Made by a program: the position numbers and the translations under genes. Shown one piece after another: positions 1 through 28,156 of a DNA stretch of 64,000 bases; position 1 is the stretch's first letter, and every line of letters starts with the position of its first letter. The DNA comes from Elusimicrobiota bacterium (GTDB taxonomy: Bacteria > Elusimicrobiota > Endomicrobiia > Endomicrobiales > Endomicrobiaceae), in the NCBI GenBank assembly GCA_017525905.1, contig JAFXSD010000024.1, positions 62,001-126,000 of the forward strand, given 5' to 3'. The notes below the pieces were generated by a model, which worked only from the letters and a program-made list of their open reading frames with translations, made no database searches and was not told the DNA's origin.

Positions 1-2
1 AC

Positions 3-3000
3 GGTGTTTCTTTTGCTAATAGAATTGATGCTTATATAAAAAAATCTTCGGATGCAGATAATTCTGATTTAACTTTCGGACAAGTTATAGAAAATAAAAA
101 GAGAGATGAAGTTCGTGCATTATTTAAAGAAGTTTTTGGAATAACCGATGATGAACAAGCAGCAGAACTTTTAACTGATGAAAAAATTGACAATATACTT
201 AAAGAAGCAAGTATAAATGGAGAAGATACTCAAGCGACTTGGAATGAAAAAGCTTTAGAGGTGTTACTTGCCGATGATGCTGCAATTTTAGAGTTTGCAA
301 CAACCGTGAAAGATTCTTCTTTATCTGAAGAGCAGAAAGAATCAATATTTGGCAGATTAAACGAAACATATTATGAATCTCTTAAGAGAAGATTAAATAA
401 TGCTACTTCACAAAAAGAAATTGATTCAATTAAGAACATAGTTTCAAAATCCGACATGATTTTAAACGAAGATCAAATAAAAGAACTTACTGCGGATGTA
501 GATTGGTTAAATATGAAAACGCCGGAACTTTTAGAGGAAAGATTAACACAGGAGTTGGGAGTAAAAGTTACGGTTACGGATGTAACAGTAAAGAGACGTC
601 AAGTTAGACCGGGAGATGTGTATAGGAGATATATTGCTATATACGAAGTAAAAGTAGAAGACGGGAAAAACGGAATAACTTTTGACTATTACCAATATAC
701 CAGAGATAGAGAGGATACTTTTTCCATTGAAAATAAACTTGATACATATGATGGTATGAAAAATATGATTGAAGCTTGGAGAGCTTTGTTAAAGAAAGGC
801 TTTCAAGTTGAATCTAAGACAGATGAAAATGATAATCAGTATTTTGAAATAACGAAATCCGGTACCGACGCCAAAATAAATGTTTATTTATACAATATAG
901 AAGGAGAATATATTTTCGATGCAGAAAAAACCGAAGAGTTGTTTAATATATATTCGAGATTCGAAAAAGATTTAAAAGCAACAAAAAGCGGATATACGGT
1001 TGAATTTGATACCGATGAAAATAATTATGCAATTTTTAAAGTTTCAGGATATGGAAAAACAGCGAAAATTTATCCGTTCAATTCAAGCGGCGAAGTGGAA
1101 GATATGTTTAAATATTATACACCTGATATGGCAGAAGCAATAGCGGGAATGTATATTTACAATGAAGGCACAGATTCCGTTATGCAAAAAACAGTAGATC
1201 CTGTTTTAACTGCGGCAATCGAATTTGAACAAATCGAAAACGAACTTGAAACAAAACTCAATTCAAGAAATACTGCATCTGAAACAACTGAAAAAATAAT
1301 AAAATATTCCGATGGTACTCAAGTTATTATCACTGTTACATTGAATAAAACGGCTTCCGGTTTAACAGGTAGCTATATAAAAACTTTCTGTGATGCTAAA
1401 GGTGAACCTTTGATAGGTTCGGATGGTAAACCCTTGAAAATAGAAATGTCTTATTCTTCTGAAGGCGGCATAACCTTTACGACTGAGAATGGCACACAAC
1501 AGAAGATTACTAAAAAGGAAGAATTCACCACAGATGATGGAATAACAGGTGTTGTTTATGCGAAAGATATATCTGATGATGAAGGAAACTATCTCGGAAC
1601 CGAAGAATTTATCGATTACAATGCAGATGGTAATAAAGATGAAGTGTCAAAAGTATTTTATAAAAATCCTGTTATTGAATTTGAAACAGGTTTAACAATT
1701 TCGAAAACGGATGTTACTGAAGATTCTCCTTTGAACCAGGAAGAGTTAGCAAATTTCTTAAAAAAAGCTTTGCTCCAAAACGGTTGCGATGCATTGGGAA
1801 GATTAAAAGATTTTGTATTCAATGATATTCATGATGGTTTCTTGTTAAAGAGAACTACCATCAACGGTGTTGAACATTACATCTATATTGAAAATGTTGT
1901 AGATAATGGTGACGGTACATATACATTTGATGTTATTTCTTCTCCGAATGACCAAAGAACACAAACAACAAAAATGGGAACTGTTACGATAAAGGTTGAA
2001 GATGAATACGGAATAATACAACAATCTGATTATAAAGATATTTTTGAAAACGGTGTTGAAAAGAATGGTACCGAATATTATCCTGTAATTTCTAAAAAAT
2101 ATGATAGCGAACTTGAACAGGATCCCGACTACAGGTGGGAAATTAAAGATGGTGAGTTTGTAAGAACATATAAGGGAAAAGAAGTAAAAGTTGTTTACGG
2201 ATCCAGTTTTGATATTATAAATTCTCAAGCAAGATCATATATTGAAAGAGGATATGGTAAGATTTCTCCGGCAAGAATTTTTGATCCGCAATATATTGTT
2301 GTTAAGGATGATAACGGTGAAGATATATTAATATCCGCCAAAGATTTATACAGATATTCTCAAGACAGAGAAAGCGTAAGTATTAAATTTGATAATGTTT
2401 CTTATACATCTTTGGATTATCTTGCAGATAAACTTTTAGAAATGGGAATTTTTTATGATGGAGATAATGCATATTCCGGCAATAATGTAGGTGTGGAAAT
2501 AAGCAATGGTAATGAACAAGGTATTATTTCCGTAAATACAAGACAAGTAAACAATGCGCATTTCATGGAATCTATTGCTTTGGATGCCACCATTTCTCAT
2601 GATAAAGATGGAAAAATTGTTTATGATGCACAACCACAATCGTTACAGAAAAATAATCCTCTTGTAAGAACGAGCGGTATGAATTATGCAAGAATGGTAA
2701 GTGAAGATGAGGACTTTAAATATGATGGAAGTAAGTTGTCGGAAATCTTTAATATTATTTCGAAATATTGTGATTATGATTTGGAAGGTTTGACATGGAC
2801 GAAAATTGAATCTTTGTCTGCTGACGGAAAAGTGTTGAATACGACCTGGGCAGCATATCATGACAGTTCGACACCGGTCATCAAAATAGATACGGATGGT
2901 AATATAGACTTTTCTATAACATACGAAAATATAGAATCCGGTTTGAGATTTAACTTGAATGATAGCGTAGATCAAATTCCGTCCAATGTTGTTGCTATTT

Positions 3001-6000
3001 CCGGTGTAGGTAAATTAGTCTTTAATTTGGCAAAAAATACGGCATTTATAGAGTTTGAAGATAAAGACGGTTGCTTGATAGCAAGACAAGGCTTATACAT
3101 AAATGAAAATTCTTTGTTTATCAAAAAAGATAAAGATGCATGGAAATCGATTGTTGAGTATTTGTCTGCAAACGGCTGGTTGGAAAATACAAATAAAATT
3201 CTGAGTACATACATTACCGATGAAGATAGATTTGAAGCTGAAACGAAGTATGTATTGAGTTTAACAAATAATGTAGTTGTTACTCAGGATAAAAAATGGG
3301 CTTCAACATTGAAAGCATGGGGTCTTGATTGGGTAATAAATGTTATTGAATTCTTTGGAATATCTTCCAAAGAGAATATAAAACATGACGGTGTTAATCT
3401 TTTTACCAGAGGAGACAGACAGGTTTTTGATTATGTTGACGGTGTTGTTCATCTTAAGAGTGAAGATAATCAATTCCTCGATATGAATTTAAATGTTACC
3501 GATGAAAGTCATGGCATAACTTTACCGTCGCAAATTCTTAAATTGTTCCATACTCCGTCAAATACACAAACGTATTCCGCTAAGAGTCAAGAAGGAAATA
3601 TTGCGGAAGCTATACCGAAGAGTTCCAGTGAGATGAACTCATTAGGTACAGATCATACGAATATCTACAGCAACGTCGAAAATGTTGAAGGAAAACAAGG
3701 TTATAGAAACTTTGAGAGAATTTTGGATGATCAAGGAAGAGTAAAAGCTGAATTCGAATATATTGTAAATGATAAAGGTGAAAGGGAATATACAAGTGCT
3801 GTGTTTGTTGTTTATTCTACTGATGGTTCTATTGCAGCAAACTCAATTACTGTTATTATAAAAGACGGAAAAATGGTGCCGGTAAAATCTTCCGATTATA
3901 TCGGTGTTCAAGAAGTGACGCTTATTCCCAAGGATGAAATGACTCCTCAATCTATGCCGACATTCGGTTACATGTCCAGACAGTTGGGATTGGCAGGTAT
4001 TTCTCAATATCATTTTGATTTCAATGGAGAAGATTTAGTTGAAAATTGGAAAACGTTTTTTAATCCCGATCAGAAATTTAATGCTGATATTGAAGAAATG
4101 ATAGAAGAATATACCACTTCTCAAAATATAATCTACAATTCCGGTGAAGGTGAAATTGTTGTAGCGGCACCGAAATTGGATGAAGACGGCAAGCCGTATT
4201 TTATAGAGTTTTATATTTATAAAGATGAAAGTACCGGTGGATATATTGATGCAAATAAACAATTAATACCGGGAACTGCAGATCGTGTTTATAAATTCTT
4301 CTATGACAAAGATAAAGGATATGACTTTACTAAATACATATACAATTCAGAAAATCCTTATAGTGATGCTATATCTATATCTTCATTTGCTTCACAATAT
4401 GATTTATCCGGCTATAATGAACAGAATGGTATTGTATACAAAATAGATTCCTCACAAGGAAACAGATACGCTTTAACACATTTGTTCGATAGTAAACTTT
4501 CCAGCAATATAGAAGAGAAAAGAGGTTTAAGGTATTCCGCATATAAGAGTGACGGTTCTCCTTTCTTTGATGTTTGTGATTATTCTGTATTTAAGTTTGC
4601 AAACGGAGTATTGGGAACTTCTACCGTAGGTGATTATTATGAAGTTGTTGTATACGATAAGAGCAATGTAGGTCAATATGGTTTCTTGATAAAGAAATCG
4701 GATTTTACTGATGGTGATATTCAAAGGTCAGTGGAAAAGATACAAGAAAAAATTGATGCAATGAATGCTATTTTGGAAGGGTATGACGGACAAACTGATA
4801 TCAATGAATATTTTGAACAATATTACGAGCAACATCCGGAAATAGTTGATCAAGTCGGTTTACAACAAATTACTAAGATATATCAAAGAACCGAAGTCGA
4901 TAAAGCAAATGATCGTGTATATATGTACTACTATGAATTTGATCCTATAAACTCCAATGTAAACGGAGAAATCAGTGCTAAGATGTACATGCACCAATAT
5001 ACTTACGATTTTGAAGGAAATTATTTATCTAAAAAGAGAACGGATATATTTGGTGATTACTATAAAGAACTTAGAGAAAATTTTAGAGATTATAAATATC
5101 TCATTTTCTCAATAGCAATTTTGTTTGGTTTGTCTGTATTTGAAAAAGCTATCGGTAAGAGAATAAATATTAGAAAGAGAGTTCCGGGTTTAAGAGATGG
5201 AGACGGTAAAGGCAAACCGGATAAAGGTGATAAATATCAAACATACGATATAAAAGGATTGTTATCTTTCAAAACTACAACCGAAAAAATATTCTTCTGG
5301 GCAGGGAATATTGCATTATTTGGTTTGGCATTCGCTGCTTATATTATTAATCCCGTAGCATCATTGACTTTGTTGGGAACGACACTTGTTATGCCTACAT
5401 TTTTAATTCCTGCAATATTTGCAGGTTTCAGAATTGTAAGTGAAACGATTAGAGTTTTGTACAGAAGAAGATTGATAAAAAAACTTGAAGATACTAAAAG
5501 AGAACCTGTAGAGCAAGCCATTAGATATGCAGAGGACACAATAAAAGAAATAGCAGATAAGGTTCCAAGTCTTACAGAAAAGAAATTGACAGATAAAGAT
5601 GTAGAGGGTGCACCCGGAAGCTTTTTCGATGAAAAAGGCGAAATGACATTTGATGGTGCAAATCTTGCGGTACAAAACATAATAGATTCTCTTAAGGATT
5701 CAAAGAGTGATATTAGTAAAGAAGAATTGGAAAATATACAGGAATTGCTGCATGCCATAACAACACGTTTTTATATTGAAGAAAAAGATGGTAAATATGT
5801 TGTTAAAGAAGATTGTAAAGATTTGTTTGAAAAAGCAAAAACGGCATTGAGTTTATGTGTTGAAAGAAAAGCTGTAGTTACCATGGGTTTAAATCAAGAT
5901 AACCAGTCTTTAAAAAATGCTTTAGATGAAAAAATGTTGAAAGGCGGTTATTTTGACAGTTATTTGATATTCGGTAGAGTACAGCCTTCGATTATGGATC

Positions 6001-9000
6001 CGGAAATTACGGATGAACTTAGAATCTATTCCGAACAGGTATATTCGAAAATAGCAGGTGAAACTTACGAAAGAAAATCGGAATATACATTAGATGATAT
6101 TGTTTTGTTCTTCTATATAGAGAAAGCATTTGCAAATCCGTCACCGCATCTTACAAACTTTAGATATTTGTTGCAGAATTATGCTTATGAAATGCTTAAA
6201 GAAGGAAACGGTGTTGCTAAAGTCGGTGAAATGATTGAGGCAAAAACAAGAAAGATTCTTCATTATTACACGAAGGATATTTCAAAGGAAGAACAGCAGG
6301 CACAGATGTTTGCAATGGCAGAAAAAATGGGCATTTCGAATTCCGATTTTGCTAAATTAGTTGCAGCAAAATCTAAACGTGAACAATCAAAAATGCTTGA
6401 TACGTTGGACTTATCCGGATCAGAGAGAAAGACAGTTGAATTAATGTTGGAAGAATATCCTAAGTTGGAAGGATATAATCATAAATTCTTTACTCCCGTA
6501 AATTTTGATTTGCTTGCAAGAACTGTCGGTTGGGCACAGAAATTTTTGAAAGAAGATGCGGCTACCGACGGAACAGATACTTTCATACCTGAACTTACTC
6601 CGTATAAAGCTTATAAAACACCTCCTTCTAAGGATACAAGAAGTGATTTGTTAAAAGCCATAGATTTGTTTGACAAGACAAAAGCATTGCGTAACGAATT
6701 GTATTTGAAAATAAATTTAAGAGCTTTTAGCTCTTATCATGTGATGCTTGTCACAATACCGTTGTCTATAGCTATGGGTATAGTTTTGTCTCCTATGATA
6801 GGTGGTATTGTTGCTGTTGCGGGTACAATGATTGCTTTGGGTTGGTACTTTGTGGCACCTAAGATAATGGAAAGAATTCAAACTCAATCATATACTCAAT
6901 ATTTCGGTAGTCCGATACCGACCAGAGCAGGTAAAACAACTGCTATTTCTACAGAACAGATAAGGAACGAATACGATAAAAGATATAGACTCTTTAGGCT
7001 TACATTTGTCAATAGCGTGATAATGCTTCCGTTTATGTTTGTGTTCTCTACCGCAGTAAAATGGATAGCATCTGCAGGATTCTTAAATTTCTTGGGTTCT
7101 TTATCATTCTTCAATCCTGTTGGATTTGCAATATTTACATTTGCTGCTTTAGGACTTATAGTGAAGGCACATAAAGATATACTTCCTTATATATACAAGA
7201 AGTTTCCTTTCTTGACCAGCGATTTTAAACAACTTGAAGCAAAGAAACGTGTCCTTGAAAAAGAAATAGGAGACTTGAATAAAGATATAGAAGGTTTGAA
7301 AAAAGAAGAAGTTGTAGATAAAGAAGCTGTAAAAAGCAAAGAAAGAGCAATAAAAGATATAGAAGAGAAGATTGTTTCAATTGATACAGAAATTAATACA
7401 AAGAACTCGGTAAGAGCTTTGGCTGTTGCTTCTGTAATAACAATTGTAGGTGTAGCTTTATTCGGTATTGGAGCCGGCATTGCACCTACATTTGTGTTTG
7501 GCGGATTAGTAATTGCTATTATGGCTGTACTTGCAATAAAGTTACCTAAGTTGAGCTTGTTCTCCGTATTAAAGATATTTGAGGCATCCGAAGCAAGTAA
7601 AGAGTTAAAAGCTAAGGGCCTTGCAGATACCGGTAAAACTTGGGGAGAATTCCAAGAGGCTTGGACAAATGACGAAACATTTGCAAATTGGAAAAAGACC
7701 TTGCTACCGGATGAAGTTATTGCTAACACAGAAAAGGCCGTTAGAGAAAAGAGACCTGATTTGACTGATGAACAGGTTGCCGAAGTTGTTGAAAAAATAA
7801 TTGAATACTATTTTGCTGAAGATTGGAACGGAATAATAAGAAATATGTGGTTGGTAGATGCGCATATCGGAATAGATGAAAAGAATGCCTACATGTATAA
7901 ATATACTATAGACGGAGACAGTAATAAGCATTATATTGATGGTCAGGAAACGTTCACATTAATGTCTTTTGATCAACTTCTTAATTTGGTTGTTGACGGT
8001 AAAATGAAAATCGAAAAACCGGATTTTTCAATGGAACCTGAAGATGCAAATGCTCGTGAAAGATTCTTTGAATATTTGAAAAATTCCAGAGCTAACCCAA
8101 GTGTTAAGGTTGTAAGTTTTGATGATTATAGACCTCTTGCGGTTAGAATACCTACATATAATGAAGGTGTATTACCTGATTTGGATAAAGAGTCATTACC
8201 TTCGGAAAGGTTAAACAGCAATGAAGTTTCTCCTGATGGCAGCAGATTAATTACTACTCTTGCTTCAAATTATGAAAACGGTCTTAAAAATTTACTTGAA
8301 AGACTTGACAGCTATCCTGTTGACGAAAACGGCAAAAAATATGCTTATGACATATTCGGGAATAAGTTCTACTTAACTTATGATGATTTGAAAGCATTGG
8401 AAGCACTAAAAGCCATGTTCGACAAAGATGGCCATATAATAAATGGTAAGAAATTAAAACTTCTTGATGGAACCAATTTACCGGATTGCAAAGTAAAACA
8501 GGAAATCTTGTTGTGGAATGCAAACAGGTTGCAACCTTTGGCAAGAACATGGATTGGAGAATTACACAACATAGAAATGTTCAAACAGAGTGCAAGAATA
8601 TTGCATCCTGAATGGAGCGAAGATGATATTCAGGAAAAAGTTTTGGAGAAATTTAAAATTGTTTCCGGTTATCAGGATTTTTGGAAAATTTATTCGGATG
8701 ATTCAAACGATCCGAGAACTACGGCGGTTGTACAATTGTTGGAACTTTTTACCGAGCAGGGTTATGGTGAATATTTTACTGTTCCTGTTATGAGAAACAG
8801 AACCAATTATTCAAAAGAATATTACGATATTTTAGTGGAAAGAGAAAAAATCGGAAATCTCACTCCTTTTGAAAAGGAATTGTTAGCAAAACTTAAAGAA
8901 TTGGGATTGGACAAAGAGACAAATTCTAAAGCAACTCGTGAAATCAACAGTCAAACCTCCATTGGTATACAAAAAGTAACTTATGAAGATTTGATGGATA

Positions 9001-12000
9001 TAATTAAAAAGTTGAGATTGTATGTGAGAACAAATGGCATTAAGCAAGAAATTAACACTGTTAAAGATGCTATGGATTTACTTGCTAAAGATCCTCATGC
9101 AAGAGCACAATTGACAGAAGAAGATGAATTGAGATTGAAGAATATAAACAATAAACTTATAACCGAACAGGAAAAATATTTCAGAATGGTATTGGCAAAG
9201 ACTGCCGATATTGATGCTTTAACGGATAGAGATAAAGCTGTTTTAGCTAAATGGAAAGAGTTATCTACCGTTAAAACTGGTTTCGAAAAGGGTAATGTTA
9301 CATTAGAACAGGCAGAGTTTATTTTTAATAATTTGAACTTGGACGAAAACGATAAGACTATGATGGTATTCTATTTTAAACGTGAACATGCATACATATT
9401 CCCTGCTAATACAAGAGGTGTTACTTCCGCTTTCGGTAAAGTTGAACATGCTTCTTACTTAAATCAGTTCATTCCTCGCGGGTGGTTGATAAAAACCAGT
9501 GATATGAACCAGGGAACATATATGGAACAATCTCAAAGATTGCCTTTGATATTGTCTACATTTGTAAGATTTAAAGGATTGATTGTGAGTTCGTTTGCCG
9601 AAATTATAGACACTAAGAGTTTCCCTTCAACAACTGCATCAGCTATGGGACATGCCGATAGAACATTTAATTATGTAACTCAGTTTGTGATGTTGTCCAG
9701 ATGGTTCTACGGACATCCTGCAATATTTGATTCGGATAAGACTCATTCTGTTGAAGATCAGGCATTTATGGTGTCTGAAGACATGATGGGTTATATGGTA
9801 CAGATAACAAGATACTATCTCAAGAACAAAGAAGATGTCATAAGAGAATTAGAAGCTTTCACAAAGGGTGAAATGGAAGATAAAGAAATGGAAAATTTCT
9901 TTAAGCAGGTATTTAAAGACAGTGATGAAAAAGATGCGGAAAAGCTTTACAGAGATATGGGAACAATTTTGGAAAGTTACATATCATCTATTGCCCCGAC
10001 TATAGATCCTAAAGCATTTATGGCACGCTTGAGAGATAATGATGTTGATGCCGGTAAATTGATTGCTGCATTACAAGGATTGTTTGAATCTCTAAAGAAA
10101 GCGGAAGAAGTATTAATATTAGAAGGTTCTCCTACAAGTTATGATGTTTCCGTTGCCGTGATAAAGTTAAGAGAAGTTTGCTTCAAAAATTCTTGTGGAA
10201 TGATACAGAAATTTGCATCCGGCTCGTCTCAATCATTTTTGAGTTATGAATTCTATGATTATGTTAAAAATTCGAGTTTTGCCGATCAAGTACTTCATTA
10301 TATTGCAGGACCCGGTTTCTATGAGAAAGATAGAGATGCCTTGCAGGTTGTAAAGTATGTTGACAGAAATGTTGTATTGTTGAGCATAAGCCCATTCTCC
10401 GCTTCTCCGGGTATTGCGGTTATGTTGGGCTTAATGGGACTTGCAATGTCTCAGACATCTTCTTTGACCGGCTTTGTAAAAATAAATCGCAGTTACGGTG
10501 AAAATATATTTACAGGCTTGAAAAACTTGATAATGCAAGCTCCGTACCACATGGCACATATGTATACACAAGCATTTGGTTTTGGAGGCCCGTCGGTAAG
10601 AGGAGATGAAGGTGAACCCGGCGGTATGATGGATGCTGCTTATATTGCCACCGGAAGAACCGCAAGATTTGCTAATGGTAAAATGTTTAATCCTGATGAT
10701 GATTCCAGCTTTTATTTGGCATTTAGTAACAGTCATATAAATGCCAACATAAGATTATCAATTTTGTCGTTATTAGGTTTGTGGCTCGTTCAGAGTCCGG
10801 CTCTTATGATGTCTGCAGTTTACATGTTGATACCTTTTGCGGTTATAGGTGCAATATTGTTCTATAATCCAGGCGGTTCCGTAACCGGTGCTGATTACAG
10901 AATGGTATTTAAAAACTATAGAGAAGATGTTTCAAATTGGGTAAGAATAATTAGAAACGGCGGTTCGCAGATTGCCAAAAAAGGCGGTAAAAAAGTTTCA
11001 GGCAATCTTATAATGGTGTTGACTTCAGGTATATTCTTGTTTGCTTATGCAACATTATTTAATGCTGCCGCATTCTTGTTTTCCAAGAAATCGAATGCAG
11101 CTCAAAAGTTTACTGCAGGATTTATAGGTGCAGGCCTTGGTGCTTTAGGAGCATTCCTTGCAGCATCGACATTGCCCGCTATTGCAGTACCTTTATTAAT
11201 TGCATTTGGTGCAGGTGCAATGCTTGGTATTGTAAAGATAATCGTGGATAGCAGAACAGGTGTAAGAACAGGTTCTTCACCTGTGAGAAAAGCTTTCGGG
11301 GTAGGCGTTTCCGGAATTGTAGTTGCTTCAATATTGGCTTGGTTTATGGGTGCGCCTATAGCGGTTCTTTTGATAGGTGTTGCGGCTATGGCCCTTTTCT
11401 TCGGAACAAGAGGAGGAATGCAATATCCTTTCGCAGATTCAAATATAAGAGAAGATGACTTGTTTATAAATATGAATGAGACAGTGCTTAACAATACTGC
11501 AAATATAGATTTGGAAGAATTTAAGAGAATTTTTGAGGAAAATGTTGAACTTGATACAATAAGCGAAGAAGACGGCTTGCCGGAAGGTTTTGATATAAAT
11601 CCTGATAATTTAGCTAATGCAATAAACAGTGTTAGAGAAAAATATGGTATTACGAAAGACAGTAAGATAAAATATTCTCAACTTGAAGAATTCTTGAAAG
11701 ATAGAATCGAAGATTATAAGAAGATAGAAAAAGAACAGGAAACAATTAAAGCAAATGCAAGAACAGTTCGTAATGTGCTTTTAGCTTCCGTAGCTTCTAT
11801 AGCTATAGGTGCTTTTCTTTCCGCATTTGTTGCTTCGGCTTTATGGCTTGTTGCACCACTACTTTTGGTAAGTTCGTTTGTTTTCTTTGTTTCTTTCACA
11901 AGTAGTGGTAAGACATCGACGGCTTTTGCAAAGACATTGAAGGTTTTCATACCGATGGCAGCATTTATATTCCTTACGATGTTTGTAAGTTTGAGCACCG

Positions 12001-15000
12001 GAGGATTGGGGTTATTGGTAACTGTTGCTCTAATGAATTTGCATAAGTTTGGTAATTCTCTCGGAAAGAATTTTGCAAAGTTTAGAAACAGAGACTCTTT
12101 GTCGGGAGTAAGATTGAATGCTGTTTCACCTATTATTTTGATAGCTGCAGTACCTGCATTGTTAATGGTATTAATTCCGGGCTTTGTTTCCGGATATAAA
12201 GCACAAAAGAAAGTAATAGAAGAAAACAGAGAAAAAATAAAAGATGCTTATGAAAAGAATAATTTAGAAGAATTGCAAGAATTACTTCCTACATCATTTA
12301 GCAAATCTAAAGTTAAAGAGATAATGGAACGTGCCAAAGAGAGAAAAGAGGCAGATGCTAAAGCCAAAGCAGAAGAAGAAGCAGCAGCAGAAGAAGAAAC
12401 CGAATCGACAGATGAAGCAACAACAGAGGAAGTAGCAGAAGAGAAAGTTGAAGAACATCTTATTAGCAGTGAAGGTGAAGGAGAAACAGAAGAAGATGAA
12501 ATTTTGGAAACATTAAAAGAAATGTTACCGGAAGGAAATGCGGAAATTGAGAGACACTTTCAATTTTGGGCAAACGCAGTTTATCCTCTTCTTAAAGGAA
12601 GAATGTCACAATTAAAGGCTTGGGCTGAATATGTTGCAGACGATAGAAGACAATATTCATTTAAAATGCATCTTTATGCAGAAAATGAAGAAGATTGGAA
12701 AAATATGGTTGAAGTTTTGTCTGTATATTTAAAAGATTCCAAATTTTCGTGGAAGACAATAGGTTCTTATACTCTTTTTAGTGATATTACTGGCGAACAA
12801 ACAGGGAAAAGTTTTACTATATATCCGAGAGATGAAGTTGAATTTAGGAAAATAGCTCAAGATTTAGATAAGCTTTTTAGAGATAAAGGGTTAACTAAAA
12901 AAGGGACAAATATTATTGGAGATAGACAATTAGGTTCTACGGGAAGAATATTTTACAGATACCAATATAAAGATATAAAAGACAGAGACAACATTCTTGA
13001 TCTTGGAAATTCTGAAGATAAGAAAAAATATGATAGTCTTTATGATGCTAATCGCGGAGGAGATAATTATTTACCTGAGGAAGTTATGGCCGAAAAAGAA
13101 AAATACGATCCGTTTATAAATTTTGATCCACAACAAGCAGCAACAGAAGGTGAAGGTGCGGTGGAAGTAAAAGCCGATGAAACTCCTGCAACTGCGGATC
13201 CAAAAGAATTAGCAAAAAAGAAGATAAGCGCGGTAAATGAAAAATTTGGTATAAAAGCTGTAGAAACAACATCTGTTGGTAATGTTGCGGGTATTAATAT
13301 GCAACAAATTACAACGAAAGTTGCGGATGTTTCCGAAGAAGAATATGCTGAATTTTTAGCAACACCTGAGGAACAGGAAAGATTGACAGACGCTTATGTA
13401 CAAGCTGTAAATTCCGGCAGGAAAGAGAATGGCGGTCGTCAGGAAGGCACCTATGTTGATTTGCAGGGATATAACGGAGAAATAATAGTAATAGGTGATG
13501 TCCACGGAAGATTGGATAAGCTTGCACAGAAAATAGCTGCTAATAGAGAAAAACTTGAAAAAGGTGAAGCTATAATTGTATTTGAAGGTGACTATATTCA
13601 TAGAGAAGGCAGAGAAAGACTTCGTTCTATGAATTCGTCCATGGCTACAATACAGTACATAATGAATTTAAAAGTTCTGTATCCTCAAAATGTTTATATG
13701 TTGGCAGGAAATCATGATATAGGAAGAAATTTTAGTAAAGGAGGAATTCATCAAGGAATATTGTTCTTTATGAACTGGGATGAAGAACAGGGATATGGCA
13801 ACGCGGTAGATACTTATGAAAATATTATGAGAAATACTTTGGCACTTGCAGCCGAAACTGACGAATATATAATAACACATGCAGGACCTGCAAGAGATGA
13901 AAATTCAAAAGATTGGAGAAATGTTTTAAAGAACATGTCGAATATACAAAACGAAGACAACAGAGATTCGTTGGTATTCCAATTATTGTGGAGCAGAGCC
14001 AATACTTCTGATATTCATCAAAATTACAACAAAGCTCATGTTGATGAGTTTGCCGGTGATAAAACTTTGATAGTCGGACATACTCATGTTAAAGGTAATT
14101 TTTACAATAGTATAGAAGAAAATAATATCGTAATAATAGAACCTTCAGATTCTGAGCTTAACGGATACGGAGTTATTGATCAAAGATTACAATCCGCGGC
14201 TGAATCCGCTATCGAAGAAAAGAAAGAATCGTCCGCAAGTCTTTCAAGAAAAGATGCTGAAGCTTCAGAAGCGGCATTTGAAAGATTGGAACAAGGAAAA
14301 GAAACCAGAGGAAGAGAAACTATATTAGCTGAAGCCGAAAAAGAGTTCCCCGGCATAACGGAATATGTTACTGCTTTGGAAAAAGATTTAGGAATTGAAA
14401 ACGGAAAAGTCGGTGATGGTATAAAAGTTACCGTTCGCGGTGATGAAGCAGATGCAACGATTATGTTTACTGAGAAGGCTACAGAAATACTTTCTGAATT
14501 ATACGGAAAAGATGTAAGATCAACTTTGGATAGTTATACAAGAGCAGTTGTGTTTGTTAGCGGCAAAAATATTGCTGATATGAATGAAAGAGATTTCTTC
14601 TTAAATTATGTAGATGGTGAAGCAAGAAAAATTGCTGAAGAAAGAAAAGAACAAAGAAGAATAAGTGAAGCTGCAGAAAAAGCTGTTCAAAAAGCGGGTG
14701 AAAACGAGAAACGCTCAGATCAAAAAGAAGGTATAGAATTAACAGGCACGGAAAAAGATGAATTGCGTGAACAGGTATCTTATGGACCTGAATTTGATAC
14801 ATTAAAGCATGCATTGGAAACATTAAAAGAAGAATATAGTGAAGCTAACAGACAGGCGTTAAGGACAGCAATAGAAGCTGCAAATAAAGTAGGTATAGAT
14901 ATAAAGAAAGATTCTTTATATAAAGAAAAGTTAGATATATTGTTGCTTGCTGTAATGCAGGATCATTCTTATAAGAGTGATGGAAGTCAGTATTATTGGG

Positions 15001-18000
15001 ATGAAGAAGCAAGAACAATATTTAGGAACCAGAGGTTGGAGTATGTTGAGAAACAGAGATCAGGAGCAGCAGCAGGTTTAAGAATAGGTCAAAATTTCTT
15101 CTTGCCTCCGATAGCTGATAAAACAGGAATGTCATCGGAAGAATTAATGGCAAGAATGGGCTTACAAGATATGACACCTATTCTTGAGAACGAGAGTTAC
15201 AGACGAACAGCAAGGGGAGTTACTTTTATTGATGCACAGATGAACGGAGGATTAGGATCATCGATAAAGAGATTATTGTGGTTAAAAGCACAAAAGTTCT
15301 TTGAAACATTGAAAAAAACAACCCCTGTTCAAAAATTACAAAAGATATTGTTGAATTTAAGTTTCTTGGATAAAGATACTGAAATAGAAGCACAAACAGC
15401 ATCGTTAAGTGCAAAGGGCTCTGATTTAGGAAGGAATGTAAATTTAGGAACGGAAACGGAACAGAAGGTAGAATATTTACCAATATCGATAATAAAATTC
15501 AGATCATTGTTGTCAAAGATAAAGAAAGGTTTATACAAAAGTGCATCAGTAATAATGTTAACTAGCCCGACATCTGAAGAGATAATAAAGAAATTGTATA
15601 AAGAACCGGCAAAGAGTGAAGATGCTAAGGATATGGGCAAAGATAATCAACATATGATAAACGGAAACGGAGAACATATATTGGAAGTATTTGGTGATCA
15701 AGATATAGCAGAAAATGCAATGATAAGCCAGGCATCATATCCTTCAATAAGGATGGATGGAGATAGATTATCTTTAGCATTTGATAGAGAAGCCCCCGGA
15801 GGACACGGAGTATGGTTAAAGACATTATCTGAAAAATTGAAAGCGGAAGGAGATGTAATAGTATGTATATCTAACTCAGATGCAATTAATAGCGGTACAC
15901 CGGTAGAAGTTTGCGGATACATGATAGAACAGAAAAAAGGTTTAGTAGTATTGGTTGCCACTAGAGAGAAGATAGATAGAAAGGGTGGAGTTGTAGGTTT
16001 GGAAGCAGTTACATTAAAAGACGGAAGAACAATATTTGTTCCGAATATAGATGAACTTGCACAGGCCGAAGCAGCAGGAGAAAAGAATATATTTATGGGA
16101 ATGGGATTTGGAGAATACGAAGGAACAGTACCGTTTAATACGAATACGGTATTAATAAATGCAGGATTATTCCATGCATTTTTGAGTGAATTACAAACGA
16201 TATTGAGTCCGGAAGAATATGCATCGATAATGTCTCCTGATTTGATAACGAACGGGAAATCCGAAGAAAACAAAAAAACAAAAGAAGTTGACAGATGGAT
16301 TCAATTGGAAGGTGCCTTAGGATCAGCCGTATTTAATCTTAATAAGAGATTAGAAATAATGAGGCATGAAGGAAATACAGCAGTAGATGCAATACTTAAT
16401 AAGTACTTCCCTAATGGAATGATAGGATTAGTTCTTGCAGATAAGTCACAGAGAATGTCGATCTTTACACCTGGAAAGTTTGCAGCTGACTATTGGATAT
16501 ATGATAATTTGGGAAAAGTAAATCCTGAGACGTATGCATTGGAAATAGATAGAGCGGAAGCTGTAAATATTGATGCTCCGGTTAAAGTTGGTGAGGCAAG
16601 CACGGTATATGCTGATTACTATTATTTCAAGAGATTCTGGAGAGATTGTACAATAGATAAATTGTCGAACTTATTTATAAATAAAGATGTTAAAGGTGAG
16701 CAACAATTCGGTAAAGTGAAGATGAAAGATGTTGATTTGAGAGGTAATGTAAGAATTAATAATGCGACAACAGAAGACTTATTGATTATACCGGAATTAA
16801 TGGAAACATTAGGTTTTGAAAAGAGTGAGACCGGAAAAGTGATACTTGAGAATGTAAGAATAGATGCTATAGAGAGAAATGGTAACATTGTTTTGGTTGT
16901 TTCTAAACTTATGGACGAAGAGAAAATGGATGAATCATCAACGAGGATATTTACCACCACGGTTGATAAATTAAAAACCACTAAAGCAGAGGGAATTGAT
17001 GGAGAGGAAGGAGCTGTTTTTGGCAGAGCTGAAGATAAATATATTACTCCGTTGGAACAAGAACAGCAAGTAACACCTGTTGATGCAGCAGCAGATATTG
17101 CGGTGGAAACAGCTAAAACTCCTACCGGAGCGGCAGCACAAAAGCAGGCAATAAATATGGTGTTTGAAAACTTGGGTGACGAAATTTCTATAAAATTTGG
17201 TACCTTAACGGAAGCAAGAGTGGCCGGATATACTAAAGTTGCGGCTGTTGTTAGCGGCTCTATTACGGAAAGCCTTATTGAGCAAATGGAGAATAGCGGT
17301 TGGTTGAAAAAAGATTCGAACGGAAACTCTGTGTTGTTAGATGCTGCAGGAAATGTGGTTGCCAAAGTAGGTACTATAAATGGTAAGAGGACACTTGTTT
17401 ATAAAAACGGCAAGCCTGTTATATTCAAATTTAATGCAATGGCGAAATCCGAAGATAAGGATACAATTAATTTCCAATTACATTTGAATAAAGGACCGAG
17501 AGCGATATTTGATTGCTTGAATCCGGAAACGCAGAAACAGTTATTACAAGTGACGGAATTATTGTTAAATGACAGATTGCTTTCAGATCCGGTAGCGGAA
17601 GATAAAATGTTGAAAATATTAGATAAGGTTAAAATTACATCAGATAAACTTAACATTGCTCGTATAGAAACTATCAATAAACAATTAGAGAATAACATAA
17701 AAGCTATAAGAGAGGAATTAACAGAGACTTCTGCTTATACCAATCCTGAAATAGATAATTTATTAAGGTCATCTAATATAAACGGTATTAAATCTGTTCA
17801 AAGACAAGAAACATATTTGAAAGTGACATCGAATACGGATATTGCAGCAAGACTTAATACAATGAGAAATGCCGGTGTAACGGCAGTAATATTGAGAGGC
17901 AAATACACTGCAGATACGATTAAGTTTATAAAGAATCATGGCTTTGATGTTATAATCGAGGTAGAAAGTTTTGATAGAACAGCATTGCAACCGCTTGTGA

Positions 18001-19037
18001 ATGCAGGATTAAGCGGCTTTAGGCTTATTGTTAAGGATGCAGATAAAGTAAGAGAACTAAAGAATGATTATATAAAAATGATGAGAGATATCAATGAAAT
18101 GAATTTTAAGACCATACCTACAATATCTTATGAGTTTGAAGGTTCATTACTAACGGAAAACCAAGATAGTATAATTAACTTTATACAAGATAAAGATGTT
18201 AATGTTGAGTTGGTTGTAGATGCCGCAACTTGTGTTGACAATATTGATGCATTTAAACCTTTAGCGGATATTGCAAAATTAGTTGTTAAAGTTGAAGATA
18301 ACAGAAATATAAATTCGACAATATTATCTAAATTGTATGGTGTTGCAATATGTGCAAACAAAGCATTCGTTACCAACTTGTTCAGAGATAATGTAAAGAA
18401 AAATCCGAGATTTGTTGGCAGAGATGTTGAATTGAGTGAAATATTTAAAGAGAATAAATCTTTAGCCGATATAAGAGATCTTTTAATAGGAAACAAAACA
18501 TTGACGGAAGAAGAACTTGCTGAAACATTTAATATCGAAACAATAAATGCAATAAAAGATTTGTTGGAACAAAATAAGAATAATGGTTTTGATTTGACAA
18601 TGACAGTTAGAGAATACATATTGGGTTCTATGATGGCAACTATAGAAAAAGATATTATTTCAAGTGATGTTCAAGTTGGAGAAAAGAATTATAAGATTTT
18701 GGTGGGAGCGGCATTATTAATGATGGTTAATGGCGCAAGTACTGATTCTATCAATGATATGGTAAATAATATTGAGATTATTGGAACCGGTTCTCTTTCC
18801 GATTTATTGAATGGAAAAGATTCTCAATATGCAAAACTTGCAAAGAATATTTTGGGCAAGATGTGGAAATCCAGTGATATGATGATAGCTGTGGACGGAG
18901 AAGCTGATACAGTAACATTAGCAGGTCTTATAAAACTTATACTTACAATGGATACAATATTACCGGAGAAAGGTTTGTTGGGTTCATCAATGAATGTTTC
19001 GTTAGACGGAATCAAGGGTATCTTGGCAGCTGCATAA
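3..19037 (+). CDS. Giant multidomain membrane protein with GT48-like glucan synthase, metallophosphatase and UDP-glucose pyrophosphorylase-like domains (5' end outside window)
   Basis: The reading frame is open from the first bases, so the gene is truncated on the left and encodes at least 6,344 residues; an internal GTG at 261 is not a credible start. In order (residues counted from base 3): a long beta-rich region (1-1690) with a tandem repeat; membrane segments near 1700, 1765-1815, 2240-2390 and 2470-2515; a GT48-like region (about 2670-3630); a further membrane block (about 3670-4070); an acidic Glu/Ala stretch (about 4120-4170); a PPP-type metallophosphatase (about 4490-4720); a UGP2-type nucleotidyltransferase (about 5020-5630); a possible TIM-barrel piece (about 5940-6130); and the C-terminal tail GIKGILAAA. 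I infer a membrane machine that makes or exports a glucan. The catalytic GT48 part should face the cytoplasm. Domain identities rest on motif alignment from memory; the N-terminal third is unrecognised. Confidence 0.85.
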   Translation, partial: GVSFANRIDAYIKKSSDADNSDLTFGQVIENKKRDEVRALFKEVFGITDDEQAAELLTDEKIDNILKEASINGEDTQATWNEKALEVLLADDAAILEFATTVKDSSLSEEQKESIFGRLNETYYESLKRRLNNATSQKEIDSIKNIVSKSDMILNEDQIKELTADVDWLNMKTPELLEERLTQELGVKVTVTDVTVKRRQVRPGDVYRRYIAIYEVKVEDGKNGITFDYYQYTRDREDTFSIENKLDTYDGMKNMIEAWRALLKKGFQVESKTDENDNQYFEITKSGTDAKINVYLYNIEGEYIFDAEKTEELFNIYSRFEKDLKATKSGYTVEFDTDENNYAIFKVSGYGKTAKIYPFNSSGEVEDMFKYYTPDMAEAIAGMYIYNEGTDSVMQKTVDPVLTAAIEFEQIENELETKLNSRNTASETTEKIIKYSDGTQVIITVTLNKTASGLTGSYIKTFCDAKGEPLIGSDGKPLKIEMSYSSEGGITFTTENGTQQKITKKEEFTTDDGITGVVYAKDISDDEGNYLGTEEFIDYNADGNKDEVSKVFYKNPVIEFETGLTISKTDVTEDSPLNQEELANFLKKALLQNGCDALGRLKDFVFNDIHDGFLLKRTTINGVEHYIYIENVVDNGDGTYTFDVISSPNDQRTQTTKMGTVTIKVEDEYGIIQQSDYKDIFENGVEKNGTEYYPVISKKYDSELEQDPDYRWEIKDGEFVRTYKGKEVKVVYGSSFDIINSQARSYIERGYGKISPARIFDPQYIVVKDDNGEDILISAKDLYRYSQDRESVSIKFDNVSYTSLDYLADKLLEMGIFYDGDNAYSGNNVGVEISNGNEQGIISVNTRQVNNAHFMESIALDATISHDKDGKIVYDAQPQSLQKNNPLVRTSGMNYARMVSEDEDFKYDGSKLSEIFNIISKYCDYDLEGLTWTKIESLSADGKVLNTTWAAYHDSSTPVIKIDTDGNIDFSITYENIESGLRFNLNDSVDQIPSNVVAISGVGKLVFNLAKNTAFIEFEDKDGCLIARQGLYINENSLFIKKDKDAWKSIVEYLSANGWLENTNKILSTYITDEDRFEAETKYVLSLTNNVVVTQDKKWASTLKAWGLDWVINVIEFFGISSKENIKHDGVNLFTRGDRQVFDYVDGVVHLKSEDNQFLDMNLNVTDESHGITLPSQILKLFHTPSNTQTYSAKSQEGNIAEAIPKSSSEMNSLGTDHTNIYSNVENVEGKQGYRNFERILDDQGRVKAEFEYIVNDKGEREYTSAVFVVYSTDGSIAANSITVIIKDGKMVPVKSSDYIGVQEVTLIPKDEMTPQSMPTFGYMSRQLGLAGISQYHFDFNGEDLVENWKTFFNPDQKFNADIEEMIEEYTTSQNIIYNSGEGEIVVAAPKLDEDGKPYFIEFYIYKDESTGGYIDANKQLIPGTADRVYKFFYDKDKGYDFTKYIYNSENPYSDAISISSFASQYDLSGYNEQNGIVYKIDSSQGNRYALTHLFDSKLSSNIEEKRGLRYSAYKSDGSPFFDVCDYSVFKFANGVLGTSTVGDYYEVVVYDKSNVGQYGFLIKKSDFTDGDIQRSVEKIQEKIDAMNAILEGYDGQTDINEYFEQYYEQHPEIVDQVGLQQITKIYQRTEVDKANDRVYMYYYEFDPINSNVNGEISAKMYMHQYTYDFEGNYLSKKRTDIFGDYYKELRENFRDYKYLIFSIAILFGLSVFEKAIGKRINIRKRVPGLRDGDGKGKPDKGDKYQTYDIKGLLSFKTTTEKIFFWAGNIALFGLAFAAYIINPVASLTLLGTTLVMPTFLIPAIFAGFRIVSETIRVLYRRRLIKKLEDTKREPVEQAIRYAEDTIKEIADKVPSLTEKKLTDKDVEGAPGSFFDEKGEMTFDGANLAVQNIIDSLKDSKSDISKEELENIQELLHAITTRFYIEEKDGKYVVKEDCKDLFEKAKTALSLCVERKAVVTMGLNQDNQSLKNALDEKMLKGGYFDSYLIFGRVQPSIMDPEITDELRIYSEQVYSKIAGETYERKSEYTLDDIVLFFYIEKAFANPSPHLTNFRYLLQNYAYEMLKEGNGVAKVGEMIEAKTRKILHYYTKDISKEEQQAQMFAMAEKMGISNSDFAKLVAAKSKREQSKMLDTLDLSGSERKTVELMLEEYPKLEGYNHKFFTPVNFDLLARTVGWAQKFLKEDAATDGTDTFIPELTPYKAYKTPPSKDTRSDLLKAIDLFDKTKALRNELYLKINLRAFSSYHVMLVTIPLSIAMGIVLSPMIGGIVAVAGTMIALGWYFVAPKIMERIQTQSYTQYFGSPIPTRAGKTTAISTEQIRNEYDKRYRLFRLTFVNSVIMLPFMFVFSTAVKWIASAGFLNFLGSLSFFNPVGFAIFTFAALGLIVKAHKDILPYIYKKFPFLTSDFKQLEAKKRVLEKEIGDLNKDIEGLKKEEVVDKEAVKSKERAIKDIEEKIVSIDTEINTKNSVRALAVASVITIVGVALFGIGAGIAPTFVFGGLVIAIMAVLAIKLPKLSLFSVLKIFEASEASKELKAKGLADTGKTWGEFQEAWTNDETFANWKKTLLPDEVIANTEKAVREKRPDLTDEQVAEVVEKIIEYYFAEDWNGIIRNMWLVDAHIGIDEKNAYMYKYTIDGDSNKHYIDGQETFTLMSFDQLLNLVVDGKMKIEKPDFSMEPEDANARERFFEYLKNSRANPSVKVVSFDDYRPLAVRIPTYNEGVLPDLDKESLPSERLNSNEVSPDGSRLITTLASNYENGLKNLLERLDSYPVDENGKKYAYDIFGNKFYLTYDDLKALEALKAMFDKDGHIINGKKLKLLDGTNLPDCKVKQEILLWNANRLQPLARTWIGELHNIEMFKQSARILHPEWSEDDIQEKVLEKFKIVSGYQDFWKIYSDDSNDPRTTAVVQLLELFTEQGYGEYFTVPVMRNRTNYSKEYYDILVEREKIGNLTPFEKELLAKLKELGLDKETNSKATREINSQTSIGIQKVTYEDLMDIIKKLRLYVRTNGIKQEINTVKDAMDLLAKDPHARAQLTEEDELRLKNINNKLITEQEKYFRMVLAKTADIDALTDRDKAVLAKWKELSTVKTGFEKGNVTLEQAEFIFNNLNLDENDKTMMVFYFKREHAYIFPANTRGVTSAFGKVEHASYLNQFIPRGWLIKTSDMNQGTYMEQSQRLPLILSTFVRFKGLIVSSFAEIIDTKSFPSTTASAMGHADRTFNYVTQFVMLSRWFYGHPAIFDSDKTHSVEDQAFMVSEDMMGYMVQITRYYLKNKEDVIRELEAFTKGEMEDKEMENFFKQVFKDSDEKDAEKLYRDMGTILESYISSIAPTIDPKAFMARLRDNDVDAGKLIAALQGLFESLKKAEEVLILEGSPTSYDVSVAVIKLREVCFKNSCGMIQKFASGSSQSFLSYEFYDYVKNSSFADQVLHYIAGPGFYEKDRDALQVVKYVDRNVVLLSISPFSASPGIAVMLGLMGLAMSQTSSLTGFVKINRSYGENIFTGLKNLIMQAPYHMAHMYTQAFGFGGPSVRGDEGEPGGMMDAAYIATGRTARFANGKMFNPDDDSSFYLAFSNSHINANIRLSILSLLGLWLVQSPALMMSAVYMLIPFAVIGAILFYNPGGSVTGADYRMVFKNYREDVSNWVRIIRNGGSQIAKKGGKKVSGNLIMVLTSGIFLFAYATLFNAAAFLFSKKSNAAQKFTAGFIGAGLGALGAFLAASTLPAIAVPLLIAFGAGAMLGIVKIIVDSRTGVRTGSSPVRKAFGVGVSGIVVASILAWFMGAPIAVLLIGVAAMALFFGTRGGMQYPFADSNIREDDLFINMNETVLNNTANIDLEEFKRIFEENVELDTISEEDGLPEGFDINPDNLANAINSVREKYGITKDSKIKYSQLEEFLKDRIEDYKKIEKEQETIKANARTVRNVLLASVASIAIGAFLSAFVASALWLVAPLLLVSSFVFFVSFTSSGKTSTAFAKTLKVFIPMAAFIFLTMFVSLSTGGLGLLVTVALMNLHKFGNSLGKNFAKFRNRDSLSGVRLNAVSPIILIAAVPALLMVLIPGFVSGYKAQKKVIEENREKIKDAYEKNNLEELQELLPTSFSKSKVKEIMERAKERKEADAKAKAEEEAAAEEETESTDEATTEEVAEEKVEEHLISSEGEGETEEDEILETLKEMLPEGNAEIERHFQFWANAVYPLLKGRMSQLKAWAEYVADDRRQYSFKMHLYAENEEDWKNMVEVLSVYLKDSKFSWKTIGSYTLFSDITGEQTGKSFTIYPRDEVEFRKIAQDLDKLFRDKGLTKKGTNIIGDRQLGSTGRIFYRYQYKDIKDRDNILDLGNSEDKKKYDSLYDANRGGDNYLPEEVMAEKEKYDPFINFDPQQAATEGEGAVEVKADETPATADPKELAKKKISAVNEKFGIKAVETTSVGNVAGINMQQITTKVADVSEEEYAEFLATPEEQERLTDAYVQAVNSGRKENGGRQEGTYVDLQGYNGEIIVIGDVHGRLDKLAQKIAANREKLEKGEAIIVFEGDYIHREGRERLRSMNSSMATIQYIMNLKVLYPQNVYMLAGNHDIGRNFSKGGIHQGILFFMNWDEEQGYGNAVDTYENIMRNTLALAAETDEYIITHAGPARDENSKDWRNVLKNMSNIQNEDNRDSLVFQLLWSRANTSDIHQNYNKAHVDEFAGDKTLIVGHTHVKGNFYNSIEENNIVIIEPSDSELNGYGVIDQRLQSAAESAIEEKKESSASLSRKDAEASEAAFERLEQGKETRGRETILAEAEKEFPGITEYVTALEKDLGIENGKVGDGIKVTVRGDEADATIMFTEKATEILSELYGKDVRSTLDSYTRAVVFVSGKNIADMNERDFFLNYVDGEARKIAEERKEQRRISEAAEKAVQKAGENEKRSDQKEGIELTGTEKDELREQVSYGPEFDTLKHALETLKEEYSEANRQALRTAIEAANKVGIDIKKDSLYKEKLDILLLAVMQDHSYKSDGSQYYWDEEARTIFRNQRLEYVEKQRSGAAAGLRIGQNFFLPPIADKTGMSSEELMARMGLQDMTPILENESYRRTARGVTFIDAQMNGGLGSSIKRLLWLKAQKFFETLKKTTPVQKLQKILLNLSFLDKDTEIEAQTASLSAKGSDLGRNVNLGTETEQKVEYLPISIIKFRSLLSKIKKGLYKSASVIMLTSPTSEEIIKKLYKEPAKSEDAKDMGKDNQHMINGNGEHILEVFGDQDIAENAMISQASYPSIRMDGDRLSLAFDREAPGGHGVWLKTLSEKLKAEGDVIVCISNSDAINSGTPVEVCGYMIEQKKGLVVLVATREKIDRKGGVVGLEAVTLKDGRTIFVPNIDELAQAEAAGEKNIFMGMGFGEYEGTVPFNTNTVLINAGLFHAFLSELQTILSPEEYASIMSPDLITNGKSEENKKTKEVDRWIQLEGALGSAVFNLNKRLEIMRHEGNTAVDAILNKYFPNGMIGLVLADKSQRMSIFTPGKFAADYWIYDNLGKVNPETYALEIDRAEAVNIDAPVKVGEASTVYADYYYFKRFWRDCTIDKLSNLFINKDVKGEQQFGKVKMKDVDLRGNVRINNATTEDLLIIPELMETLGFEKSETGKVILENVRIDAIERNGNIVLVVSKLMDEEKMDESSTRIFTTTVDKLKTTKAEGIDGEEGAVFGRAEDKYITPLEQEQQVTPVDAAADIAVETAKTPTGAAAQKQAINMVFENLGDEISIKFGTLTEARVAGYTKVAAVVSGSITESLIEQMENSGWLKKDSNGNSVLLDAAGNVVAKVGTINGKRTLVYKNGKPVIFKFNAMAKSEDKDTINFQLHLNKGPRAIFDCLNPETQKQLLQVTELLLNDRLLSDPVAEDKMLKILDKVKITSDKLNIARIETINKQLENNIKAIREELTETSAYTNPEIDNLLRSSNINGIKSVQRQETYLKVTSNTDIAARLNTMRNAGVTAVILRGKYTADTIKFIKNHGFDVIIEVESFDRTALQPLVNAGLSGFRLIVKDADKVRELKNDYIKMMRDINEMNFKTIPTISYEFEGSLLTENQDSIINFIQDKDVNVELVVDAATCVDNIDAFKPLADIAKLVVKVEDNRNINSTILSKLYGVAICANKAFVTNLFRDNVKKNPRFVGRDVELSEIFKENKSLADIRDLLIGNKTLTEEELAETFNIETINAIKDLLEQNKNNGFDLTMTVREYILGSMMATIEKDIISSDVQVGEKNYKILVGAALLMMVNGASTDSINDMVNNIEIIGTGSLSDLLNGKDSQYAKLAKNILGKMWKSSDMMIAVDGEADTVTLAGLIKLILTMDTILPEKGLLGSSMNVSLDGIKGILAAA
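781..1105 (+). repeat. Tandem ~55-residue coding repeat in the giant protein's N-terminal region
   Basis: Two adjacent units (about 781-920 and 967-1105) encode similar segments with the shared pattern K-x-G-[FY]-x-V-[EF], then TDEN, then an aromatic, then S-G or G-Y-G, then AKI and a closing G-E. They look like repeated small beta-rich domains in the presumed extracytoplasmic part of the protein. The repeat is visible at protein level and is diverged in DNA. Confidence 0.6.
8010..10900 (+). other. GT48 (1,3-beta-glucan/callose synthase)-like domain within the giant gene
   Basis: Blocks match fungal FKS1 and plant callose synthases in the same order. EDANARERFFEYL (near 8040) matches the R-R-I-S-F-F-A block. 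PLAVRIPTYNEGVL (near 8133) matches the 'TVLIPHYSE' block. LLWNANRLQPLARTW (near 8510) matches 'W-A-S-x-R-x-Q-T-L-x-R-T'. KFKIVSGYQDF (near 8650) matches 'KFxxVVSxQ'. YIFPANTRG and SDMNQGTYMEQ (9394-9530) match 'IFxRG' and 'DxNQDNYxEE'. YGHPAIFD and SEDMMGYM (9707-9798) match 'YGHPDxFD' and 'NEDIxAG'. KFASGSSQSFLSYEFY (near 10210) matches 'KVACGNGEQxLSRDxY'. YIATGRTARF with FYLAFSNSHI (10640-10740) matches 'YRATGRGFV' and 'YRLYSRSHF'. Several invariant positions are changed, so activity is not assured. Confidence 0.8.
13470..14170 (+). other. PPP/calcineurin-like metallophosphatase domain within the giant gene
   Basis: The full set of metal-ligand motifs appears in order: GDVHGR (near 13495), GDYIHREGRER (near 13587; the usual GDxxDRG, with the second Asp replaced by His), GNHD (near 13705), THAGPA (near 13876) and GHTHV (near 14076). 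The arrangement is closest to the bacterial Ser/Thr phosphatase (PrpA/B) and diadenosine tetraphosphatase branch. The substrate cannot be told; it could act on a phosphoprotein or a nucleotide. Confidence 0.85.
15070..16880 (+). other. UGP2-family (UDP-glucose pyrophosphorylase) like domain within the giant gene
   Basis: The order of motifs follows eukaryotic-type UTP-glucose-1-phosphate uridylyltransferase. MNGGLGSS (near 15240) is the nucleotide loop. AKGSDLGRNV (near 15412) sits where CKGPKSL is expected, after an insertion. SYPSIR comes near 15735. PGGHGVW (near 15796) matches PPGHGD. ISNSDAINSG (near 15871) matches VSNxDNLGA. REKIDRKGGVV (near 15967) matches the 'T-x-A-D-x-K-G-G' block. 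FNTNTV (near 16135) matches FNTNN. IQLEGALGSAVF (near 16298) matches 'IQLETAVGAAI'. A left-handed-helix-like tail follows. The Lys of KGPK appears to be replaced (K-G-S-D), so catalytic competence is uncertain. Confidence 0.8.
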
Positions 19038-28109: not shown

Positions 28110-28113
28110 TTAT

Positions 28114-28144
28114 AAGACTGACATTTTATGTCAGTCTTTTTTTT
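28114..28144 (+). terminator. Intrinsic terminator ending the ftsH unit
   Basis: A perfect 10-bp stem (AAGACTGACA, 28114-28123, with 28129-28138) has a 5-nt loop and runs into eight T residues. It separates the ftsH-lipoprotein unit from the third giant gene, whose ribosome binding site begins only a few bases further on. Confidence 0.88.
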
Positions 28145-28156
28145 ATGGAGATAAAA

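Follow-up and report, generated by a model that had tools for sequence, protein, structure and literature searches.

The 64,000-nucleotide stretch analysed here (the window) corresponds to C83:62001-126000, where C83 is the code of a 249-kb contig in a 2.03-Mb Endomicrobia (Elusimicrobiota) genome. It contains the downstream part of a giant gene (C83:46016-81037), whose first ~16 kb lie to the left of the window. In this gene we identified a region that is, with a probability of about 0.72, a bacterial synthase module of the GT48 superfamily, carried in a membrane protein of 11,673 amino acids (aa) that has its own donor-making domain. This reading is supported by homology to FKS1, conservation of motifs, fold family, a fused domain of UDP-glucose pyrophosphorylase (UDPGP) type and the spread of the module over Elusimicrobiota giants. 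The product would be a beta-glucan derived from UDP-glucose, probably beta-1,3-linked; like this linkage, the activity, processivity, export and donor channelling are predicted from the sequence.

The giant gene runs uninterrupted for 11,673 codons from ATG to stop (35 kb), and a good Shine-Dalgarno sequence (AAGGAG) precedes the ATG. The initial annotation had correctly recognised a giant protein with a GT48-like domain, but had missed its full extent and the UDPGP domain. Below, G-numbers are codes for the genomes compared and for their module-bearing proteins, G000 being the window's own genome.

Motifs and layout of the GT48-like module

All FKS1 blocks claimed in the initial annotation were found in one frame between 8046 and 10740, in the same order as in FKS1 (Table 1). 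The flanking membrane helices were likewise recovered by hydropathy, eight before and ten after the domain, so that the layout is transmembrane (TM)-glycosyltransferase (GT)-TM as in FKS1. The "comparable spacing" of the blocks held only in part. It is close between the positions of K1082 and D1102 (20 residues in FKS1, 21 in the window) and looser between Y1193 and E1221 (28 and 23) and between D1102 and Y1193 (91 and 69), but it breaks down between the YxE and GK motifs, where the window has ~195 extra residues, and after ED, where more than 100 residues are inserted.

In yeast FKS1, E1221-D1222 are catalytic, UDP-glucose is contacted by Y849, E851, K1082 and N1085, and the DAN motif D1102-N1104 stands in for DxD, the enzyme being metal-independent (2025 review, PMC12715860). 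The window module keeps the contacts Y849, E851 and K1082 and the catalytic residues, while N1085 is replaced by His; the window clade shares this His, and G033 and G029 have Asn as in FKS1. In the alignment, E851, K1082, D1102, N1104, Y1193-G1194, E1221, D1222, K1246, K1261 and G1265 were identical in FKS1 and all 15 bacterial GT48-like rows.

Profile searches

Homologues of the module turned up in 14 other genomes when 295 Elusimicrobiota genomes were searched at the protein level, and a profile (A1) was built from 13 Elusimicrobiota homologue sequences. Searched against 177,635 PDB sequences, A1 matched FKS1 (E 4.4e-18) and GSC2 (7.6e-18), with no others below 0.8, which bears out the proposed relationship at the level of the family. 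On the FKS1 core (residues 811-1319) A1 scored 73.5 bits, whereas 2000 shuffled versions of this core reached at most 3.5 bits; chance similarity to FKS1 is ruled out by this control.

The match to the Pfam family PF02364 (curated cut-off 37.2 bits), also expected from the initial annotation, depended on the sequence used. The window protein alone reached 21-23 bits (E 1.1e-4 and 2e-5), below the cut-off, but 11 of the 13 homologues matched individually (best E 1.2e-31). Across the phylum, PF02364 matched 11 of the 295 genomes, and in five of these the score exceeded the cut-off. A PF02364 scan of the window's own genome at default threshold gave no match, and single-sequence phmmer of the window protein against PDB returned nothing relevant; both nulls reflect sensitivity limits, since profiles resolved them. 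The strongest member was G033, a more distant Endomicrobia giant of the same organism family, with 229.5 bits and an alignment spanning profile positions 3-694 of 819; it also matched FKS1 by single-sequence phmmer (E 7e-35 over 490 residues). Other bacterial relatives over the cut-off were G029 (111.6 bits), G060 (108.2 bits) and G258 (91.6 bits). Because G033 and these relatives exceed the PF02364 cut-off, GT48 is, judged by sequence, a family that occurs in bacteria, and the window copy is a predicted divergent member of the bacterial set.

Predicted structure

The AlphaFold model of the window module (9-sequence alignment) had a predicted local distance difference test (pLDDT) score of 54 and was good in its first half only. 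In a PDB fold search its top three matches were Fks1 (E ~1e-3, probability 0.99-1.00), with the next match at 0.55. Because of the poor second half, we also modelled G046, a close homologue without the insertion (pLDDT 71, predicted TM-score 0.72). Fks1/Fks2 occupied ranks 1-13 in PDB for this model (E 2.4e-12 to 1.9e-8), as foreseen for an FKS1-type fold, and hyaluronan synthases of family GT2 followed from E 1.9e-3. As Foldseek also weighs sequence, the fold and profile results are in part dependent on each other.

The fused UDPGP domain and the proposed mechanism

Scanned alone, the UDPGP domain matched PF01704 with 28.1 bits (cut-off 22, E 1.1e-6), and an independent homologue gave 34.5 bits (E 1.3e-8). 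A four-sequence profile of the domain matched the Trypanosoma cruzi UGPase (E 4.5e-8). The domain shares the NGGLG, FNTN, LEGALG and FTPGKF motifs with the eukaryotic UGP2 type, from which it differs in being fused C-terminal to a synthase. Homologous segments behind the module were also found in G046 (twice) and G060, and in G148 a UDPGP match is located after the module. In G046 the UDPGP-like segment is tandemly duplicated downstream of the GT48 module (L113:11100-16202).

The giant protein's domain was the one PF01704 match in the whole genome, and this family was unmatched in 14 control prokaryote genomes. No gene in the window's genome passed the galU model (TIGR01099) at its curated cut-off. 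The cell's only UDP-glucose pyrophosphorylase may be the one in the giant protein. The UDPGP domain is the strongest context evidence for UDP-glucose as donor, because it shares a chain with a synthase of a UDP-glucose-using kind.

In the proposed mechanism, the UDPGP domain, which follows about 1,600 residues later in the polypeptide, would convert UTP and glucose 1-phosphate to UDP-glucose. The GT-A domain between the two TM bundles would bind this donor via YxE, GK and DxN with metal-independent chemistry, and the ED carboxylates would form the catalytic centre at which glucose is added to the growing chain. The C-terminal helices would then carry the glucan out of the cytoplasm.

Bridge to GT2 and phylogeny

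G258, from another Elusimicrobiota class, was over the cut-off both for PF02364 and for the GT2 family PF13632 (32.3 bits), and it matched FKS1 (2e-9) and the cellulose synthase BcsA (6e-7) across the same residues. Its frame (L102:2149-11346, 3,066 aa) also has a weak GH76 match. The modules of G171 and G252 show DxD at the DxN site and LRKW at the site of the GT48 motif K[FI]xxG; they are putative GT2/GT48 intermediates. Both come from another Elusimicrobiota family code (L138, 7,528-aa frame, and L139, 5,602-aa frame, respectively) and have no Pfam match. Across the Elusimicrobiota giants the motifs form a series from DxD to DxN and from RKW through KW to K[FI]xxG. By their motifs and matches, the more distant giants are predicted to bridge GT48 and the cellulose-synthase type of GT2.

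The core tree was rooted on G171 and G252, an outgroup that is bacterial and not a characterised GT2; its branches are long and FKS1 is the sole eukaryotic sequence. G258 splits first; at the next node FKS1, G033 and G060 (support 83/80) part from the window clade and all other rows. Bacterial sequences thus surround FKS1 in the tree, and a grouping of the bacterial GT48-like rows (including G258) without FKS1 was rejected by the approximately unbiased test (p-AU 0.0096). These results suggest that GT48, supposedly a eukaryotic family, also has members in bacteria and may have its roots there.

Alternative explanations

Several observations weigh against the main reading. The window sequence alone stays under the PF02364 cut-off, its model is poor past residue 665, and TM-scores to Fks1 were only 0.40-0.46, which is attributable to the one third of the G046 model that has low confidence. 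The module further has the His at the N1085 site and the large insertion after ED. The cysteines of the extracellular TM7-TM8 disulfide, a possibly lineage-specific feature reported as essential in fungal FKS1 (PMC12715860), were absent from the translation of window 10365-10670, and a GH16 search of the window's genome was empty. It is conceivable, although we consider it unlikely, that the module is GT48-like by descent and makes a product other than beta-1,3-glucan, differing in linkage or sugar, or serves as a non-catalytic channel or scaffold. The identity to FKS1 of about 18.5%, the N1085 replacement, the large insertions and the position of the module among forms grading into GT2 would fit this, and UDPGP-type enzymes can use other UDP-sugars. 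Against it, no catalytic residue tested differs anywhere from FKS1 to G258, a pattern that speaks against lost catalysis. An ordinary GT2 synthase of the cellulose, curdlan or hyaluronan type, with only the GT-A/TM fold in common with GT48, is very improbable. The fold of FKS1 itself resembles that of cellulose synthase (PMC12715860), the relative G258 matches PF13632 and BcsA, and 3 of the 13 homologues have weak PF13632 matches; yet BcsA and other GT2 enzymes were not among the A1 profile matches, GT2 structures ranked below the 13 Fks entries by at least about five orders of magnitude, and the window has DxN and KFxxG instead of DxD and QxxRW. Profile search, fold ranks and motifs thus all disfavour a plain GT2 synthase.

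As to the origin of the GT48-like synthase module, recent capture from a eukaryotic donor (rumen ciliate, flagellate, anaerobic fungus), instead of an old bacterial family, appears doubtful. Such capture would agree with the patchy distribution (15 of 96 class genomes), with the grouping of G033 and G060 with FKS1, and with the presumed association of Candidatus Ruminimicrobiellum, the apparent genus of the window's genome, with rumen ciliates (PMC11257099). The bacterial copies, however, are deeply diverged, G258 and the DxD GT2-like cousins fall outside FKS1, FKS1 itself is nested in bacteria (the outgroup being itself bacterial), and the base composition and codon-position GC of the giant gene resemble those of neighbouring genes. 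We tentatively raise the reverse direction, in which GT48 would have arisen from bacterial GT2-type synthases and then passed to eukaryotes, the giant protein being a self-supplying glucan machine that makes its donor, polymerises it and exports the chain; this is a possibility rather than our expectation. An assembly artefact or eukaryotic contamination is hardly credible. The contamination estimate of the genome is 7.4%, but the 35-kb frame is unbroken and without introns, 14 other genomes carry homologous modules in giant frames, and the contig also encodes uvrB, lptFG and ftsH-like genes; contamination is ruled out by the homologues in other genomes and the bacterial genes on the contig.

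Comparison with known systems

Compared with GT48 (fungal FKS1/FKS2 and plant callose synthases; PF02364), the window module has the same ordered motifs, DxN, ED and the residues E851, K1082 and K1261, and the same GT-A domain between TM bundles, and Fks proteins are its top fold matches. It differs in being bacterial, in its 11,673-aa host protein with UDPGP in cis, and in the insertions of ~195 and more than 100 residues, apart from the divergence, the His and the missing cysteines already described. To our knowledge, no Rho1 is to be expected in a bacterium, which is a further difference. With GT2 (BcsA and hyaluronan synthases) the module shares the principle of a GT-A domain with a membrane channel; GT2 came second in the fold search, and the relative G258 matches both families. 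It lacks DxD (DMN instead) and QxxRW (MIQKFASG at this place), and the window-clade profile has no significant GT2 match.

Giant genes are known from Omnitrophota and Elusimicrobia and have been interpreted as serving prey attachment and wall degradation, according to the passages of PMC12057145 that cite West-Roberts et al. 2023. The protein described here is likewise an Elusimicrobiota giant with many TM helices and a weak SecA-like N-terminal segment (Walker segment, SecA2 E 0.0053 over 54 positions), but differs in its polysaccharide-synthesis module and donor-making domain. Giant bacterial proteins of this class, hitherto read as predation weapons, thereby gain a biosynthetic reading. Given the presumed life of the genus with rumen ciliates, a host-facing role of the giant protein would be plausible.

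GT48 comprises the callose and fungal wall glucan synthases and is the target of echinocandins. The GT48 surveys in the literature found treat the family in eukaryotes. No paper combining GT48 and Elusimicrobi* was found in the open-access literature; CAZy, UniProt and bioRxiv were outside this search, so bacterial PF02364 entries that are preprinted or not yet reported may exist. The chemistry and the family are already known; new are the occurrence of GT48 in another domain of life, the protein context and the intermediates. The bacterial members and the relatives matching both FKS1 and BcsA provide sequence-level intermediates for a GT2-GT48 link that was until now argued from structure, and they make the origin of the family and the direction of transfer testable.

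Distribution

A1 matched 15 of the 96 genomes of the class, and none of the many small genomes of genus code g2. The A3 profile matched 23 of 341 genomes of the phylum, some only weakly; the weak matches in G191, G020, G227, G008 and G044 were too partial to be accepted as GT48. Apart from G044, each module match sits in a frame that is thousands of residues long or reaches the end of its contig. Two short window-clade patterns searched against 84,980 species genomes occurred in Endomicrobia/Elusimicrobia only, the sensitive profiles having been confined to the phylum. Plasmids, phages and viral contigs gave no match and no viral structure was below 1e-3, so a phage, viral or mobile-element origin was rejected.

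Other features of the giant protein and its neighbours

Table 1. Positions of features in the window (nucleotides, window numbering)
Feature	Position	Strand	Remark
Window section of giant frame	1..19037	+	begins left of the window
Eight hydrophobic helices before domain	5100..7535	+	hydropathy scan; counterpart of FKS1 TM1-6 region
GT48-like cytosolic GT-A domain	7626..10360	+	counterpart of FKS1 about 750-1290; profile, alignment, fold search
RERFFEYL block (ANARERFFEY)	from 8046	+	
IPTYNE	8148..8165	+	Y and E align with FKS1 UDP-glucose contacts Y849, E851
EILLWNANRLQPLART block	8484..8560	+	aligned with FKS1 WASLRSQTLYRT
GKVEH	9435..9449	+	K at FKS1 K1082 position, H at N1085 position
DMNQGTYMEQ block	K of KTSDMNQ at 9492	+	
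DMN (DxN replacing DxD)	9501..9509	+	aligned with FKS1 D1102-A1103-N1104
YGHP of YGHPAIFD	9708..9719	+	aligned with FKS1 1193-1196
SEDMMGYM block	9774	+	ED (9777..9782) aligned with FKS1 catalytic E1221-D1222
Insertion of >100 residues	9800..10160	+	missing from FKS1 and G046-type homologues (alignment)
KFASGSSQSFLS block	10209	+	
KFASG	10209..10223	+	K = FKS1 K1261, G = G1265; site of GT2 QxxRW
IATGRTARF	10644..10670	+	FKS1 counterpart ISTGRGFAT
SNSHI block	10725	+	
Codons of invariant residues	E851 8163; K1082 9438; D1102 9501; N1104 9507; Y1193-G1194 9708-9711; E1221 9777; D1222 9780; K1261 10209	+	FKS1 numbering
Ten hydrophobic helices after domain	10371..12190	+	hydropathy scan; counterpart of FKS1 TM7-17
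RamC_N-like segment	12651..12962	+	PF25816, E 3.4e-8, over cut-off
Calcineurin-like phosphoesterase domain	13482..14090	+	PF00149, E 2.7e-14
UDPGP domain	15243..16500	+	PF01704
UDPGP blocks	NGGLGSS 15243; GHG 15801; FNTN 16134; QLEGALGSA about 16300; K of FTPGKF block about 16476	+	

The C-terminal ~660 residues of the giant protein (window 16965-19034) are kept in the giants of G014, G148 and G100 and have no Pfam match, while the G014 copy shows a weak match to MupG_N (TIM barrel). The first ~1,300 residues are common to other giants. Two open reading frames, 19104-25100 (1998 aa) and 28106-38257 (3383 aa), adjoin the giant gene and contain no convincing Pfam domain; a gene for a protein with FtsH-like AAA and M41 protease domains (25203-26906) is placed between large frames. 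Both frames, the giant protein (C83:46016 onwards) and giants of other genomes have in common an N-terminal domain of ~500 residues with a NIQDLH motif, which follows a signal-like segment. By this shared N-terminus, the giant proteins form a putative family.

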